A stretch of 64,000 bases of DNA. Source: Vibrio hepatarius. Lineage in GTDB: Bacteria > Pseudomonadota > Gammaproteobacteria > Enterobacterales > Vibrionaceae. Positions 1 through 43,917 of this stretch are shown here, piece by piece. Both the position numbers and the translations under genes were made by a program. The stretch covers positions 1-64,000 of the forward strand of contig NZ_JAATOO010000024.1 in assembly GCF_011806575.1 (NCBI RefSeq), in the 5' to 3' direction. Numbering within the stretch: position 1 is the first letter of the stretch; each line of letters starts with the position of its first letter. Under the pieces are notes generated by a model. It saw only the letters and a list, made by a program, of their open reading frames with translations. It made no database searches and had not been told where the DNA came from.

Positions 1-58
1 GTTCGTCTGGTGTGTTTGCCAGAGCCAGTGTCGGATACTTTGAAATATCAAGAGTCAT
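1..58 (-). CDS. dxs: 1-deoxy-D-xylulose-5-phosphate synthase, N-terminal fragment (dxs)
   Basis: Only the first 19 codons are inside the window, on the minus strand, starting at the ATG at 58-56. They read MTLDISKYPTLALANTPDE, which I recognise as the N-terminus of Vibrio Dxs, the thiamine-diphosphate enzyme that makes DXP from pyruvate and glyceraldehyde-3-phosphate at the head of the MEP isoprenoid pathway. It follows ispA by 20 bases, the usual xseB-ispA-dxs operon order. The identification rests on this short peptide plus synteny. Confidence 0.88.
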   Translation of the reverse strand, partial: MTLDISKYPTLALANTPDE

Positions 59-78
59 ATATTTGCGCGCTTATAGTG

Positions 79-963
79 TTAGTTCTTGCGCTCGATGACA
101 TATCGGGCGAACTCTTCGAGTAACTCTGTATTGTATGGGATAGCTTCCAATGCTTGAAGTGCTTCATGTAACAGAGTGTGAGCTTTGTTGACAGCGCCTT
201 CCAACCCTAAGAGAGCGGGATAGGTGCTTTTGTTTAATTCTTGGTCAGAACCTTGTGGTTTGCCCAGAGTTTCCGTATCACTGATGATATCAAGAATGTC
301 GTCTTGAACCTGAAACGCTAAGCCGATCGCATCGGCGTATTTGTCGAGTAAAGGTAGCACTTCAACGCCTTTTTCACCCGCAGCTAGCGCGCCAAGACGG
401 ATCGCACATTTCATCAATGCACCGGTTTTATGGCGGTGAATTTCTTCTAATTCTGCGAGAGAAATTGAACGATTTTCGGCAGAGAGATCGAGAGATTGCC
501 CCATGCACATTCCGCTAGCACCAGACGCTTGAGCCAAAGTGCTGACCATCTTAATGCGATTCGCTTCTGCTTCTGGCGCAAGTTTACCGTCAGCCAGAAT
601 CGTAAACGCTAAAGTTTGCAGTGCATCGCCAGTGAGAATCGCGGTGGCTTCATCAAACTTGATGTGACAAGTAGGCTGGCCGCGACGCAACTCGTCATCG
701 TCCATCGCCGGAAGATCATCGTGGATAAGGGAGTAGGCGTGAATACACTCAACTGCAGCGGCTGGAGCGTCAAGCGCTTCAACGTCGCACCCTAGCATTT
801 GTCCGGTAATGTAAACCAGAAACGGTCGTGCGCGCTTACCTCCTAGCAGCAAACCGTAACGCATTGCGTCGATCAAAGGTTGCTCTTGGTGAGGAAGTTG
901 GTTAAGCCATTCTTCTAACTGAACGTTGTTACGTTGTTGGAATGAGGTTAGAGCCTCTTGCAT
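79..963 (-). CDS. ispA: Farnesyl diphosphate synthase (geranyltranstransferase)
   Basis: This cytosolic prenyltransferase condenses IPP with DMAPP and then GPP to give farnesyl diphosphate, the precursor of quinones and of undecaprenyl carriers. The 294-residue protein has the normal family length. The first aspartate-rich motif is HDDLPAMDDD (residues 81-90) with RR at 93-94, and the second is DDILD (221-225); both bind Mg-diphosphate. GGKRARP (41-47) is the IPP-binding segment. The gene lies between xseB (20 bases upstream) and dxs (20 bases downstream) on the same strand, so the three are very likely co-transcribed. Confidence 0.97.
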   Translation of the reverse strand: MQEALTSFQQRNNVQLEEWLNQLPHQEQPLIDAMRYGLLLGGKRARPFLVYITGQMLGCDVEALDAPAAAVECIHAYSLIHDDLPAMDDDELRRGQPTCHIKFDEATAILTGDALQTLAFTILADGKLAPEAEANRIKMVSTLAQASGASGMCMGQSLDLSAENRSISLAELEEIHRHKTGALMKCAIRLGALAAGEKGVEVLPLLDKYADAIGLAFQVQDDILDIISDTETLGKPQGSDQELNKSTYPALLGLEGAVNKAHTLLHEALQALEAIPYNTELLEEFARYVIERKN

Positions 964-37173: not shown

Positions 37174-38307
37174 ATGGCCATTACTGTTAATACCAACGTC
37201 TCTGCAATGACAGCGCAACGTCACCTGACCAATGCGACGGATTTGTTGAACCAATCTCTGGAGCGCTTAGCTTCGGGGAGTCGTATTAATAGTGCTAAAG
37301 ATGACGCCGCAGGGTTACAAATCTCGAATCGCCTCGAGTCGCAAATGCGTGGTCTGGATGTCGCAGTAAGAAACGCTAACGACGGTATTTCGATTATGCA
37401 AACGGCAGAAGGGGCAATGCAGGAAACCACCAATCTTCTCCAACGTATGCGTGACTTGTCTTTGCAGTCTGCGAATGGTTCCAACAGCAAAGCAGAGCGA
37501 GATGCGTTACAAGAAGAAATGGCGGCTTTGAACGATGAATTGAATCGAATCGCCGAAACAACCTCTTTTGGTGGTCGAAAATTGCTCAATGGCTCGTTTT
37601 CGTCTTCCGCGTTTCAAATCGGTGCAGCATCGGGTGAAGCGGTACAAGTGTCGCTGAAAAACATGCGTTCAGACAGCCTAGCAATGGGCGGTTTTAGCTA
37701 TGTTGCCGCAGCAAAAGCGGACGACAGTTGGCAAGTTTCGCAAGGCAACCACATGCTCAACATGCAGTACACCGATAGCAATGGGGTAGAGCAAAATATT
37801 CAGATCAAAGCCAAAATTGGCGATGATATCGAAGAGCTCGCAACCTATATCAACGGCCAGACCGATAAAGTGTCGGCATCGGTCAATGAAGATGGGCAAC
37901 TGCAGATTTATATGGCAGGCAAGGAAACCGCTGGTTCGATTACTTTCAGTGGCAGCTTAGCGCAGCAATTGCAGATGAACTTGGCGGGTTATGAGGCGGT
38001 TGATAACCTCGACATTTCTAATGTCGGTGGTGCGCAACGAGCGGTTTCGGTGATTGATACTGCGTTGAAGTATGTTGATAGCCACCGCGCTGAGTTAGGG
38101 GCGATGCAAAATAGATTCAGTCACGCGATCAACAACCTTGATAACGTGCATGAAAACCTCGCTGCCTCTAACAGCAGAATCAAAGATACCGATTACGCTA
38201 AAGAAACGACGCAGATGGTTAAGCAGCAAATTCTGCAACAGGTCAGCACTTCTATCTTGGCGCAGGCCAAGCAACAACCTAATTTAGCACTGACGCTGCT
38301 AACTTAA
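37174..38307 (+). CDS. flaF: Polar flagellin, FlaF-like
   Basis: This 377-residue flagellin has the conserved N-terminal D0/D1 region ([18 protein letters not shown]..., [20 protein letters not shown]) and a C-terminal coiled-coil half. The central D2/D3 section differs most from its two neighbours. The last residues, LALTLLT, replace the LSLLG ending of FlaB and FlaA. It is first in the flaFBA tandem of Vibrio locus II. The ATG is 13 bases from the GAGGAGG Shine-Dalgarno, a longer than usual distance. Terminal divergence could limit filament incorporation. Confidence 0.88.
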
Positions 38308-38442
38308 TTGTCAAAAAAGATAATGTTATCGACATGCCCGTTTAAAGCTTTAGTGAATAAAATCCTTTTTTGGCACTTTTCTCCGCTTAATCACGTTTTT
38401 TCTCACAAACGGACTTTTTTCAAAAAAAACTTAAAAAAATCC

Positions 38443-38469
38443 TCAAGGTTTCGCAAATCGCGCCGTTAA
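38443..38469 (+). promoter_or_regulatory. Sigma-28 promoter of flaB
   Basis: TCAAG (38443-38447), 14 bases, then GCCGTTAA (38462-38469), 82 bases before the flaB start. The flaF-flaB gap (38308-38551) otherwise contains only AT-rich DNA; no clear flaF terminator is seen. Confidence 0.72.
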
Positions 38470-38551
38470 TAAAAGTAACTTTGAGAGAACTACTTGGTTT
38501 TCCGAGACGTCGGAAACCGGAAACATCGGAAAATCAATTGGAGAGATCACC

Positions 38552-39685
38552 ATGGCAGTAAATGTAAACACTAACGTATCAGCAATGACAGCTCAGCGTC
38601 ACCTAAACAACGCTAACAATGCACAACAAACGTCGATGGAACGCCTATCTTCTGGCTTCAAAATCAACAGTGCTAAAGATGACGCAGCGGGTCTACAAAT
38701 CTCTAACCGTTTGAACGTTCAAAGTCGCGGTCTTGATGTGGCTGTACGTAACGCGAACGACGGTATTTCTATCGCACAGACTGCTGAAGGTGCGATGAAC
38801 GAAACAACTAACATCCTACAACGTATGCGTGACCTATCGCTTCAATCTGCGAACGGTTCAAACTCTAAATCAGAGCGCGTAGCGATTCAGGAAGAAGTAA
38901 CCGCTCTTAACGACGAGCTTAACCGTATCGCAGAAACTACATCTTTTGGTGGTAACAAACTGCTAAACGGCACCTTCACTACTAAGTCTTTCCAAATCGG
39001 TGCAGACAACGGTGAAGCAGTTATGCTGACTCTGAACGACATGCGTTCAGACAACGTTGGCATGGGTGGCGCGAGCTACAAAGCGGCTAACGCGAAAGAT
39101 TCAGATTGGACAGTATCAGACACTGCAAACGACCTAACCATCTCTCTAACAGATACAGACGGCGTAGCGCAAACTATCGATATCACGGCTAAAGCAGGCG
39201 ATGATATTGAAGAACTAGCGACTTACATCAACGGTCAAACTGATATGGTTAAAGCGTCTGTTGATGAAGACGGTGCACTACAAATCTTCGCTGGTACAAA
39301 CAAAGTTGACGGTGAAGTAACGTTCTCAGGCGGTCTAGCTGGTGAACTAAGCATGGGTACTTCAAGCGCAGTAACTGTTGATACTATCGACGTAACTTCA
39401 GTAGGTGGCGCACAAGAATCTGTTGCTATCATCGACTCTGCTCTTAAGTATGTAGATAGCCACCGTGCTGAACTGGGTGCATTCCAAAACCGTTTCAACC
39501 ACGCTATCAACAACTTGGACAACATTAACGAAAACGTGAATGCGTCTAAGAGCCGAATCAAAGACACTGACTTTGCGAAAGAAACAACGGCACTGACTAA
39601 GTCTCAGATTCTTTCTCAAGCTTCAAGCTCTATTCTTGCTCAAGCGAAGCAAGCGCCAAATGCGGCACTAAGCCTACTTGGCTAA
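38552..39685 (+). CDS. flaB: Polar flagellin FlaB
   Basis: This 377-residue flagellin closely matches V. vulnificus/V. parahaemolyticus Fla[21 protein letters not shown], the shared D1 segment with [16 protein letters not shown], and the terminal [17 protein letters not shown]. It assembles into the polar filament after export by the flagellar type III system; there is no cleaved signal peptide. GAGAGATCACC lies just before the ATG as Shine-Dalgarno. A UUCG-loop terminator follows. Confidence 0.93.
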
Positions 39686-39702
39686 GCAAAATCGCGTTAA
39701 TA

Positions 39703-39730
39703 AAAAATCCAGCTTCGGCTGGATTTTTTT
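39703..39730 (+). terminator. Rho-independent terminator after flaB
   Basis: AAAAATCCAGC (39703-39713), TTCG tetraloop, GCTGGATTTTT (39718-39728), then T. The very stable UUCG loop and 11-bp stem make this a strong terminator. Confidence 0.95.
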
Positions 39731-39824
39731 ATGCCTGAAATCTGCCACATCCTATCTACTTGGGTGTATTTATCCGATATGGGTCACATTTCTTATCGTT
39801 ATACGAAAAAAATCATAATTTTGC

Positions 39825-39851
39825 TAAAGGTTATAGAAACACCGCCGTTAC
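39825..39851 (+). promoter_or_regulatory. Sigma-28 promoter of flaA
   Basis: TAAAG (39825-39829), 14 bases, then GCCGTTAC (39844-39851), 81 bases before the flaA start. Spacing and the GCCGTTA form match the flaB promoter, so the two are probably co-regulated by FliA. Confidence 0.75.
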
Positions 39852-39931
39852 AAGACTGAGAGAAATGAGATGTGCGAAAGCGAGGTGAGAGACGCGGACG
39901 CACATCGCCCTAATGCCTAAGGAGATCGAAT

Positions 39932-41065
39932 ATGGCAATTAACGTGAACACCAATGTGTCTGCGATGACTGCTCAGCGCCACCTTAATGGTGCGGCTGAA
40001 GGTATGCAGAAGTCGATGGAGCGTCTATCGTCTGGTTACAAAATCAACAGTGCTCGTGACGACGCTGCTGGCCTACAAATCTCAAACCGTTTAACGTCGC
40101 AAAGTCGTGGTCTCGACATGGCGGTGAAAAACGCAAATGATGGTATTTCTATCGCGCAGACAGCGGAAGGTGCGATGAACGAAACGACCAACATCCTTCA
40201 ACGTATGCGTGATTTGGCGCTGCAATCTTCAAACGGTTCAAACTCGCGTTCAGAGCGTGTGGCGATCCAGGAAGAAGTGACCGCGTTGAACGACGAACTT
40301 AACCGTATTGCAGAAACGACGTCGTTTGGTGGTAACAAGCTACTAAACGGCAACTTCGGTAGTAAATCATTCCAGATCGGCGCAAGTTCAGGTGAAGCTG
40401 TTCAGCTGACAATGAAAAACATGCGTTCGGATACGACCGATATGGGTGGTAAAGCGTACGTTGCGGCGAGCGGTCAAGCAGCAGATTGGACAGTGAGCGC
40501 AGGTTCTACTGACCTAACGCTGGACTATACTGATGTTCACGGTGAAGCGAAGTCACTGACGATCAACGCGAAAGAAGGCGATGATATCGAACAGTTGGCG
40601 ACTTACATCAACGGTCAGAACGACGACGTGAAAGCGTCTGTGGGTGAAGATGGTAAGCTACAACTTTTTGCCGCATCGAACAAAGTCGCAACTGACGTAA
40701 CGATTGGTGGTGCGTTAGGTACAGAAATCGGTTTCGGCGCAGCGGAAGATAGAACCGTTGCAGACATCGACGTATCGACGGTTTCGGGGTCACAAATGGC
40801 GGTATCTATCATTGATGGCGCTTTGAAAAACGTTGACAGTCAGCGTGCAGAATTAGGTGCATTCCAAAACCGTTTCGGCCATGCGATCAATAACTTGGAT
40901 AACATCAATGAGAACGTAAACGCGTCTCGTAGCCGTATTCAAGACACTGACTTCGCGAAAGAAACGACTGCGATGACCAAGTCTCAAATTTTGCAGCAAG
41001 CGAGTACTTCTATCCTAGCTCAAGCTAAGCAGTCTCCATCTGCCGCACTTAGCCTATTAGGTTAA
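39932..41065 (+). CDS. flaA: Polar flagellin FlaA
   Basis: This 377-residue flagellin has [39 protein letters not shown] and the ending [17 protein letters not shown]. It is third in the flaFBA tandem, with its own sigma-28 promoter. There is no clear terminator in the 71-base gap to flaG, only a weak bulged hairpin, so flaG may be transcribed partly by read-through. FlaA naming follows the order and N-terminal motif; the three flagellins are close enough that exact orthology needs comparison. Confidence 0.88.
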
Positions 41066-41136: not shown

Positions 41137-41565
41137 ATGGAGATACCATCCTACACATCGAACATTCAGCCTTATGGCCTGGAAAGTGGCACTAAAATTG
41201 CTTCAAATAATGAAAATGCACAGCTCGATTCTATACTGAAGGAGCCGCAAGTAAGCGAAAGGATAAACGCTCAATCTGTGCAATCTGTTGAGAAGTTAGT
41301 CGAAGCGAGCAAAGAGCGCGAGAAGCTAAACAGAGAAACACGGGAAAGACTTGTTGAGCAGATGAATGATTTTATTTCATCCATCAATAAGGGGTTGTCG
41401 TTTCGGGTCGATGAAGCATCCGGCAGGGATGTGGTGACTATTTACGAAGCGGATACTGGTGATATCATTCGTCAGATTCCAGATGAAGAAGTACTAGAGA
41501 TAGTGCGCCGCCTAAGGGAACAGACAGCCAGATATTCATCGGGCTTACTGAACCAAACGGTGTAA
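41137..41565 (+). CDS. flaG: FlaG flagellar protein
   Basis: This 142-residue soluble helical protein has the FlaG-family C-terminal half: LNKGLSFRVDE-type segment (here INKGLSFRVDEASGRDVVTIYEADTGDIIRQIPDEEVLEIVRRLRE). FlaG affects filament length or cap assembly in several bacteria. It is followed 20 bases later by fliD. The usual Vibrio order flaG-fliD-flaI-fliS is kept. Confidence 0.92.
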   Translation: MEIPSYTSNIQPYGLESGTKIASNNENAQLDSILKEPQVSERINAQSVQSVEKLVEASKEREKLNRETRERLVEQMNDFISSINKGLSFRVDEASGRDVVTIYEADTGDIIRQIPDEEVLEIVRRLREQTARYSSGLLNQTV

Positions 41566-41585: not shown

Positions 41586-43610
41586 ATGAGTTTTGGCCCA
41601 ATAGGGATGAATACTGGCATGGATATCAATTCCATGGTCAGCAAAGTTGTCGATTCAGAGCGCGTGCCTAAACAGCAGCGTATCGATAACGAGCGGACCA
41701 AAATTGATTCTAGTATCAGTGCCTATGGGCGGCTCAGAGAGTCGCTGGATACAATGAAAAATCTCATGACGAACTTTCGTCAGGAGAAAGCATTCGCCGC
41801 TCGAAAAGTCGACACGACGGATGATACCGTTGTATCCGCGACTGCAACCACAGATGCCATTGCCGGTCGCTATTCTATCGATGTGTTGCAGCTTGCTCAG
41901 AGCCACAAGATTGCGTCAGACGTACTACCGGAAGACGCGAAATTTGGCCCGGGTAAGTTGCAAGTTTCACTCGGCAGCAAGAAATTCACTATCGATGTTG
42001 CCGCCAATTCAAAGCTGATTGATGTCGTTCGTGGCATTAACGGCACAAAATCTAACCCTGGTGTGCGTGCGTCTGTCATTAATGACACGGCAGGGCCTCG
42101 TTTGATCGTGGCGTCAACATTATCAGGCGAGCAAAACGACCTATCGATTACGACCGATGCCCAACCGGGTAACTTGCTTAAACAACTCGAATACAAAACG
42201 TTAGAGCAACGGGTGAAAGATCTCGAGAATGCTCGCGCAGCCGCGCAAGAATTGTTGGTTCCGCTGTCACCGCAAGAGCAAGAAATTGCCGATAAAATTG
42301 CCCAGCGCAATATCGAGGCGGCAAAACTTGTCGACCAAGAGATTGCCGACGCGAGTAAGCAAGCGGCAATTCAAGCTGATCCAAACGCAGCCAAAGAAGC
42401 GATCCCGGGTAACGAGTTGTCGGCCAATGCCGCAACTGCCGCAGCGCAGGCGGGGATCGACGCTAATAAGTATATTCGACCAGAAGACCGTATTCCGGGC
42501 TGGACAGAAACCGCATCCGGAACGCTGCTAGATTCTTACTGGGAACCCGAAGCGGAACTGGACGCGAAAGCGCTAGAAAAGTCTTCCGATGTCCCCGGTT
42601 GGACCAATACGGCTTCGGGCACGTTGACTGACTCCTATGTGACGCCAAAAGAAGCACAAGCTCGTATTGAAGCGGAACAAGCGCGTATTGAACAGCAAGT
42701 CGCACAAGAAAAAGCGGAACTTAGCCGGAAAGTGGCAGCGGGCGAGCTGAGCGCAGAAGAAGCAAAACAGCTTGAGCGCGCAAAACTGTCTAAGGAAGAA
42801 CGCGAGTACCTAGAGCGTTTAGACCAAGCAAAAGCCGACCTTGATGCAGCACAGCGCTCTTTTGACACCTACCGAGGAATGACGCAGGTGCAAGCAGCGC
42901 AAGATTCCAAAGTCGTACTGGATGGTGTGGCTCAGTTATCCAGCAATAACAATATTATCGAAGACGCGATTGATGGTGTCGATCTGACGCTAAAAGGGCG
43001 TACCGAAAAAGGTAAACCGCTGTCGGAAATCGATATCGAATATGACCGTCAGGGTGTCCGAGAAGACATAGAGCGATTTGTCGGGGCGTACAACCAGTTC
43101 TATCAACTCTCTCAAGAGCTAAGTGGCGTTGACCCAAGAACCGGAATGGCGGGGCCGCTATCCGGTGACAGCATTGTGCGTAGCGCAGATTCTCGTTTGA
43201 AATCGGTCTTCTCGACCGCGATTGAACCTGCGTCGGACGATCTCAAGAGGCTGACTGAGTTTGGTATCACCACGACTCGTCAGGGTAATCTTGAAATTAA
43301 CTACAACTTACTCGACCGCCAGCTCAATAATAACTTTGATAAGTTGGAAGCATTTTTTGGTGGTAACCAAGGTTTTGCCAAGAAAGTAGAGGATGCGATT
43401 CAAGGTCTGACTGGGGTAACTGGTGCGATTCGTACGCGCGAACGCAGCATGATGGATCGTACTTACAAGCTGCAAGACGATCAGGCGGCGCTGGATCGCA
43501 GAATGGACAATCTTGAGAAGCGTACGCACGCCAAATTCTCGGCGATGCAAGACGCGACGGGTAAGATGCAGTCTCAACTCGCGGGAATGATGAATGCACT
43601 TGGCCGATAG
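41586..43610 (+). CDS. fliD: Filament cap protein FliD (HAP2)
   Basis: FliD caps the growing filament and folds flagellin. At 674 residues it is about 200 longer than E. coli FliD (468), with the N-terminal D0/D1 region (MSFGPIGMNTGMDINSMVSKVVDSER) and C-terminal coiled coil (about 610-674) intact. The extra length lies roughly at residues 200-430. It includes a 15-residue motif PGWTxTASGTLxDSY present twice (304-318 and 337-351), followed by a long Glu/Ala/Lys-rich coil. This region is likely exposed and repetitive. flaI overlaps the end of the gene. Confidence 0.95.
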   Translation: MSFGPIGMNTGMDINSMVSKVVDSERVPKQQRIDNERTKIDSSISAYGRLRESLDTMKNLMTNFRQEKAFAARKVDTTDDTVVSATATTDAIAGRYSIDVLQLAQSHKIASDVLPEDAKFGPGKLQVSLGSKKFTIDVAANSKLIDVVRGINGTKSNPGVRASVINDTAGPRLIVASTLSGEQNDLSITTDAQPGNLLKQLEYKTLEQRVKDLENARAAAQELLVPLSPQEQEIADKIAQRNIEAAKLVDQEIADASKQAAIQADPNAAKEAIPGNELSANAATAAAQAGIDANKYIRPEDRIPGWTETASGTLLDSYWEPEAELDAKALEKSSDVPGWTNTASGTLTDSYVTPKEAQARIEAEQARIEQQVAQEKAELSRKVAAGELSAEEAKQLERAKLSKEEREYLERLDQAKADLDAAQRSFDTYRGMTQVQAAQDSKVVLDGVAQLSSNNNIIEDAIDGVDLTLKGRTEKGKPLSEIDIEYDRQGVREDIERFVGAYNQFYQLSQELSGVDPRTGMAGPLSGDSIVRSADSRLKSVFSTAIEPASDDLKRLTEFGITTTRQGNLEINYNLLDRQLNNNFDKLEAFFGGNQGFAKKVEDAIQGLTGVTGAIRTRERSMMDRTYKLQDDQAALDRRMDNLEKRTHAKFSAMQDATGKMQSQLAGMMNALGR

Positions 43611-43917
43611 TTTCGACAATCTTCTGGTAGAGTTTTGTGCTTTAAATCACAAAATGTTAGCGTGTCTGCATCAAGACGAGCCAGATGTTGAAGAAATTTC
43701 GCATTTGGTCGATATAAGAGAACAGTTATTGCATCAGCTTTTGAGTTTGATTGACCAAAACAAACAATTGGCAAACTCAGAGCGGTGGCAACAAGCCGTC
43801 GATGAGACCAAATCACTGGTCAAGTTAATGGAAGAGAAAACCAATCAGTTTGGTTTATCGTTACGTAAGTATCAGCACGGGAAACGTTCCGTACAGCAAT
43901 ACAAAAAATTTTTATAG
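43594..43917 (+). CDS. flaI: FlaI (FliT-like flagellar chaperone)
   Basis: This 107-residue, acidic, all-helical protein fits the FliT/FlaI chaperone position after fliD in the Vibrio operon; it is thought to bind FliD before export. It has no motifs beyond heptad-like leucines. The ATG at 43594 lies inside the end of fliD (17-base overlap), which supports translational coupling. Assignment rests on position and size. Confidence 0.85.
   Translation: MHLADSFDNLLVEFCALNHKMLACLHQDEPDVEEISHLVDIREQLLHQLLSLIDQNKQLANSERWQQAVDETKSLVKLMEEKTNQFGLSLRKYQHGKRSVQQYKKFL

Follow-up and report, generated by a model that had tools for sequence, protein, structure and literature searches.

A conserved pair of short repeats at the centre of the extra domain of the Vibrio polar flagellar cap protein FliD, with a possible role in contacting the sheath

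The window analyzed here is a 64,000-nucleotide stretch of Vibrio hepatarius DNA (RefSeq assembly GCF_011806575.1, contig NZ_JAATOO010000024.1, positions 1 to 64,000 of the forward strand), in which fliD lies within the polar flagellar cluster, in the order flagellins, flaG, fliD, a 107-aa ORF, and later regulators (Table 1). Upstream of flaG and fliD, at 37174–41065, are three consecutive flagellin genes, each encoding 377 aa. The 107-aa ORF had no NCBIfam match at 1e-5; it is possibly flaI, encoding a possible chaperone, a name taken from the gene order flaG-fliD-flaI-fliS given for V. fischeri in PMC3948606.

Table 1. Coordinates in the window of the genes, domain, block, and repeat copies discussed in the text.
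Feature	Positions	Strand	Basis or remark
flaG, upstream of fliD in the same cluster	41137..41565	+	NCBIfam NF006465 (PRK08868), 174 bits vs cut-off 154
fliD, polar flagellar filament cap protein, 674 aa	41586..43610	+	NCBIfam NF006435 (PRK08724); Pfam FliD_N and FliD_C
Extra helical domain D4, ~residues 205–429, inserted between D2–D3 strands	42198..42872	+	AlphaFold2 model and structural match of D2–D3
Conserved 59-residue block with both repeats, residues 299–357	42480..42656	+	Conservation in 81 proteins
Repeat copy 1, residues 304–318	42495..42539	+	19-residue unit, 42492–42548
Repeat copy 2, residues 337–351	42594..42638	+	19-residue unit, 42591–42647
107-aa ORF, 17-nt overlap with the end of fliD	43594..43917	+	ORF list; flaI inferred by gene order

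The FliD of the window is an ordinary polar FliD of its genus: the model for Vibrio FliD, NF006435 (PRK08724), matched it over its full length (residues 1–673; 1171.3 bits, cut-off 580) with no family-level difference, and that model carries no description of the repeat. The Pfam domains FliD_N (PF02465, 1.4e-23) and FliD_C (PF07195, 2.6e-60) were also found. These two Pfam models cover only residues 10–178 and 438–663, which confirms the extra segment of about 200 residues proposed in the initial annotation, made from the sequence alone. A second FliD in the same genome, presumably lateral and hence unsheathed, is 447 aa long and lacks the extra domain (D4); the D4 of the window thus fits the polar, sheathed system and not the lateral one.

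Within the extra segment, the initial annotation had described a duplicated 15-residue motif. Its coordinates proved exact: the two copies are identical at 13 of 15 residues with a period of 33, and at the 13 identical residues only two codons, those of Trp and one Thr, are common to both. The similarity extends over 19 residues (14/19 identical) and then drops to 1 of 14. Chance similarity was rejected: when FliD was shuffled 60 times, no ungapped 15-residue self-match exceeded 8, against 13 observed. Independent codon draws would be expected to share about 4.7 of 13 codons, and the low codon sharing between the copies is by itself unremarkable.

The position of the repeats in the protein was examined with predicted models. 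AlphaFold2 modeling of the whole protein with 25 rows was poor (pLDDT 66.9, pTM 0.39), and no conclusions were drawn from it; a model of residues 76–500 with 74 rows had a mean pLDDT of 76.3 and a pTM of 0.64. The D2–D3 part of the latter (model range 28..388) matched E. coli FliD (PDB 5h5w_A) with Z 14.3 and rmsd 3.0 over 134 residues. P. aeruginosa FliD (5fhy) has the same D2–D3 fold (Z 14.2), whereas neither of these proteins has D4 or the repeat. Between the aligned D2–D3 parts lies D4 (about 220 residues, model residues ~130–354), which is all-helical by DSSP of the predicted model. The model sets both repeats in this inserted helical domain, in agreement with the location first proposed for them, and each copy is predicted to form a turn followed by a short helix (236–242 and 269–275, model numbering). 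Mean pLDDT values in the block were 56–78, versus 82–87 in the two long D4 helices upstream (residues 206–265). The rows returned by Foldseek and VIA-align were filled by relatives of D2–D3, so that the D4 fold was barely probed; the only row shown that spanned D4 alone, ClyA (Z 5.4, rmsd 9.1), was not counted.

Both copies were present at a spacing of 33 in all 30 genus loci read, that of the window included. These loci came from 37 genus genomes. Of the seven remaining genomes, two (G003 and G016) carry a diverged form of both copies, spaced by 35 in G003; G014 and G015 gave no FliD match, and the FliD of G026 is short and lacks the block. In the last two, G010 (L040) and G019 (L033), the polar fliD is split into several frames with internal stops and the motif was left unread; the G010 assembly has 95% completeness and 5% contamination, and sequencing error is a possible cause of its broken gene. 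A scan of relatives was also performed, seeded by peptides outside D4, from which the best 80 of 123 loci were kept. All but one of these are titled Vibrio, the remaining one being a Vibrionales bacterium, and the set overlaps in species with the 30 loci. A strict two-copy pattern was found in 74 of these best 80 of 123 loci; the other six have both copies with one or two residues changed, and a looser pattern of two copies 33 apart was found in 80 of 80. Absence of the motif from close relatives, which the initial annotation named as a sign of chance similarity, was therefore not what these two sets of loci revealed.

Comparison of the copies across the best 80 of 123 loci demonstrated the following: Mean identity was 0.934 among first copies and 0.900 among second copies, but only 0.79 between copy 1 and copy 2 within a genome. 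Copy-specific residues (Glu and Leu in copy 1, Asn and Thr in copy 2) are kept across the loci; at the fifth place, Glu was found in copy 1 in 70/80 and Asn in copy 2 in 73/80. Codon sharing at identical residues, with Trp left out, was 0.36 within a genome versus 0.33 between genomes. The two serines of each copy used TCN codons in 320/320 cases, as expected if these serines were never replaced. Because copy 1 is nearer to the copy 1 of other species than to its own copy 2, the duplication predates the sampled Vibrio, and because codon sharing within a genome is about that between genomes, synonymous sites are saturated, with no sign of gene conversion. The proposal of an old functional duplication, under strong selection on the protein with free synonymous change and not due to recent slippage, was thus borne out. 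That the repeats reflect chance similarity, or are a product of recent slippage or gene conversion, is a reading to which we give practically no credence in view of the shuffles, the retained position-specific residues, and the equal codon sharing.

Conservation along FliD peaks at the repeats. When scored by the frequency of its own residue in 30 proteins, the 15-residue window beginning at 304 ranked 1 of 659, and when scored by the majority residue in 81 proteins it ranked 7 of 660; the corresponding ranks of the window at 337 (copy 2) were 43/659 and 18/660. Mean majority-residue frequency in the 81 proteins was 0.878 in the block (residues 299–357), 0.502 in D4 before it, and 0.633 in D4 after it; the conservation of the block resembles that of residues 1–75. 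The stretch between the copies is also partly conserved. In the 81 FliDs, 191 of 192 tryptophans lie inside the 59-residue block, at positions 306 (81 proteins), 339 (81), and 319 (29), with one elsewhere, at 297; the window's own FliD has no tryptophan outside the block. The aromatic place can vary: L041–L043 have Phe in place of Trp in copy 1 and Tyr in copy 2, and L028 has Ala at this place in copy 2. D4 is acidic, with a mean net charge of −20, and its length ranges from 99 residues (L047) to 254 (L032), yet a copy persists. We conclude that D4 in the FliD of polar, sheathed flagella has its conserved centre in the repeat pair, which has stayed nearly constant within a domain that otherwise evolves fast.

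The distribution of the block was examined in the family. A 60-residue block query (E 0.001) matched 173 of 296 Vibrionaceae genomes, all in one of the 13 genera (g1), whereas FliD itself was matched in all 13 genera (145/150 genomes). This 60-aa query missed genera with one copy, and single copies emerged when their FliDs were read. In the genus g35 (14 genomes, frames of 650–660 aa), all five proteins read combine a long D4 with a single altered copy, and g33 and g28 (one protein read in each) have a short D4 with one copy, so that the three sister genera had a single copy in 7/7 proteins read. Six FliDs of 452–461 aa (two from g27 and one each from g29, g30, g32, and g34) carry neither a copy nor enough sequence to hold D4; two further g32 FliDs lie outside this count. 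Photobacterium flagella are not known to be sheathed. A literature search for the sheath state of Photobacterium, Salinivibrio, Grimontia, and Enterovibrio yielded no usable statement. Our guess is that g35 is Aliivibrio; V. fischeri flagella are sheathed (PMC3948606). In G073, G093, G072, G180, and G156 (Photobacterium-like and other family genomes) a second, distant FliD was seen in frames of 534–554 aa.

The block was absent from 20 genus genomes, of which 15 gave no FliD match, three had only a distant FliD (444–447 aa), and two had a short polar FliD. The last two, L146 (G242) and L147 (G026), are from genomes of about 1 Mb that look like those of reduced symbionts, and their polar-type FliDs of 463–470 aa have lost D4. 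One Vibrio FliD, L039 (G280), has only one copy. A tree of 33 FliD rows, rooted by midpoint only, nests L039 among two-copy species and also places L146 and L147 within Vibrio, although the branch of L147 is long; this nesting points to loss, of copy 2 in L039 and of D4 in the two reduced FliDs. The single copies resemble copy 1, with Glu at the fifth place. With the short FliDs taken as ancestral, the most parsimonious order of events would be a one-copy D4 first and then doubling in the Vibrio line. As judged from these sequences, the presence of the block follows the polar FliD.

Motif searches covered Vibrionaceae, a class-wide sample, phages, plasmids, PDB, and PHROGs. In the class sample, 55 of 369 genomes gave a match at E up to 1; the genome of the window scored 5.5e-38 and the next best match, 6.7e-4 in a 75-aa frame, was judged to be chance, leaving no convincing match outside the window's own genome in the 369. 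No match to the D4 protein was found in 50,697 phage records, and none to the 60-aa block in 72,556 plasmid records. The best E values were 0.074 for the block in PHROGs and 0.26, to unrelated proteins, in a PDB sequence profile search, and no Pfam family matched D4 or the block near its cut-off.

D4 itself is already known. In Qin et al. (April 2026; PMC13106801), D4 is an extra cap domain of sheathed flagella, which lies at the apex of the cap, under a sheath that cryo-tomograms of V. alginolyticus show to be closed; the FliD of the window shares this extra predicted helical domain atop D2–D3. Deletion of D4 in V. cholerae left swimming intact and gave empty sheath extensions, the sheath effect being seen in 3/13 mutant versus 0/15 wild-type cells (one-sided Fisher 0.087, computed here from those counts). 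The position of the cap tip by the sheath and the empty-sheath phenotype are published there for V. alginolyticus and V. cholerae only. Helicobacter FliD, with D4–D5, is also an enlarged cap protein of a sheathed flagellum, and its extra domains are treated separately (PMC13106801). According to the same paper, how D4 contributes at the molecular level has yet to be clarified, and no mention was found there of the repeat pair, of how conserved it is, of the tryptophans, or of the genera with one copy or none. In the open-access literature searched, no description of the motif was found and its peptide words were absent. Thus, the doubled motif inside the known D4 appears to be undescribed.

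We propose, with a probability of roughly 45%, that the repeat pair is a docking element of D4 that couples the cap to the tip of the sheath. One copy would correspond to one docking element, made of an aromatic Pro-Gly-Trp turn and then a short Ser/Thr-Gly-Thr-Leu helix, so that a five-subunit cap would show ten such elements to the sheath tip, where the candidate partner may be the inner leaflet, a lipoprotein, or another sheath protein. Such docking would keep the growth of filament and sheath together. We infer that the contact would come from the repeats themselves, with a gain in avidity from having two of them in every subunit. Docking is supported by the conservation, age, and aromatic content of the repeats, by their restriction to FliDs with D4, by their absence from the second FliD, and by the published position and deletion phenotype of D4 (PMC13106801). 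In addition, the presumed Aliivibrio, with sheathed V. fischeri as a guide, keeps D4 with one copy, and the lower model confidence in the block than in the preceding helices is as expected for a binding segment. Counting against docking, one copy suffices in g28, g33, g35, and G280, and Trp is not strictly required. No such repeat is known from other sheathed bacteria (Helicobacter, Pseudoalteromonas), and the class-wide sample of 369 genomes gave no convincing match beyond the window's own genome, which also counts against docking. D4 is dispensable for motility, and few cells lie behind the sheath effect (PMC13106801). The negative charge of D4 disfavours direct contact with the anionic inner leaflet.

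The main rival to docking is a structural role, in which the repeats would organize the D4 fold or the contacts between neighbouring FliD subunits and their conservation would reflect packing, with no ligand. This is possible, though less likely than docking: the Gly, Pro, Trp, and Leu positions are of a kind often seen in packing, each copy has a short helix within an all-helical predicted domain, and the stretch between the copies is partly conserved too. However, a domain built round a single tight core would not be expected to be as poorly conserved as the remainder of D4 is, the model is least confident around the block, and a copy persists despite the wide range of D4 lengths. Export and external adhesion fit less well than either docking or a structural role. 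FliD in other bacteria is a secreted substrate with a chaperone, and the 3' end of fliD is overlapped by the small 107-aa ORF, which would suit a site for a FlaI/FliT-like FliD chaperone or for folding flagellin; nevertheless, such a role in export or assembly is improbable, because the same family includes FliDs that have no D4 and strains without D4 swim (PMC13106801), so that export and capping work.

The initial annotation had suggested that the segment faces outward and could bind a surface or ligand; its interpretation as a whole was partly right, but this part was not supported. The FliD of unsheathed flagella can be an adhesin, as for Pseudomonas aeruginosa and mucin. Because the extra residues are the published D4, which lies under the closed sheath in the V. 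alginolyticus tomograms (PMC13106801), and because the polar filament in most or all Vibrio is enclosed by a membrane sheath (PMC7175336), they would not face outward in a sheathed flagellum; a ligand inside the sheath, in the inner leaflet or a sheath-tip protein, is compatible with these data, and an external surface is unlikely. In addition, among the families searched neither D4 nor the block drew a lectin or adhesin match, and the motif hardly varies among the best 80 of 123 loci although their species differ in host and habitat, which is unusual for a host-facing adhesin. An adhesin binding a surface or host ligand is therefore very improbable.

It is unlikely, though worth stating, that the repeat pair is the long-sought filament–sheath contact, with a ring of ten elements gripping a dedicated partner at the sheath tip so that growth pulls the sheath. 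On this view, D4 would have come with a single copy in an ancestor shared by Vibrio and its sister genera, and the doubling would have followed in Vibrio. On the question of how the Vibrio sheath grows in step with the filament, the present results narrow the search from about 220 residues to two short elements in a 59-residue block. The block is a direct handle for tryptophan fluorescence, peptide pull-down, and precise removals, and as a sequence mark it tells apart, within a single family, the FliDs that have D4 and those that do not.
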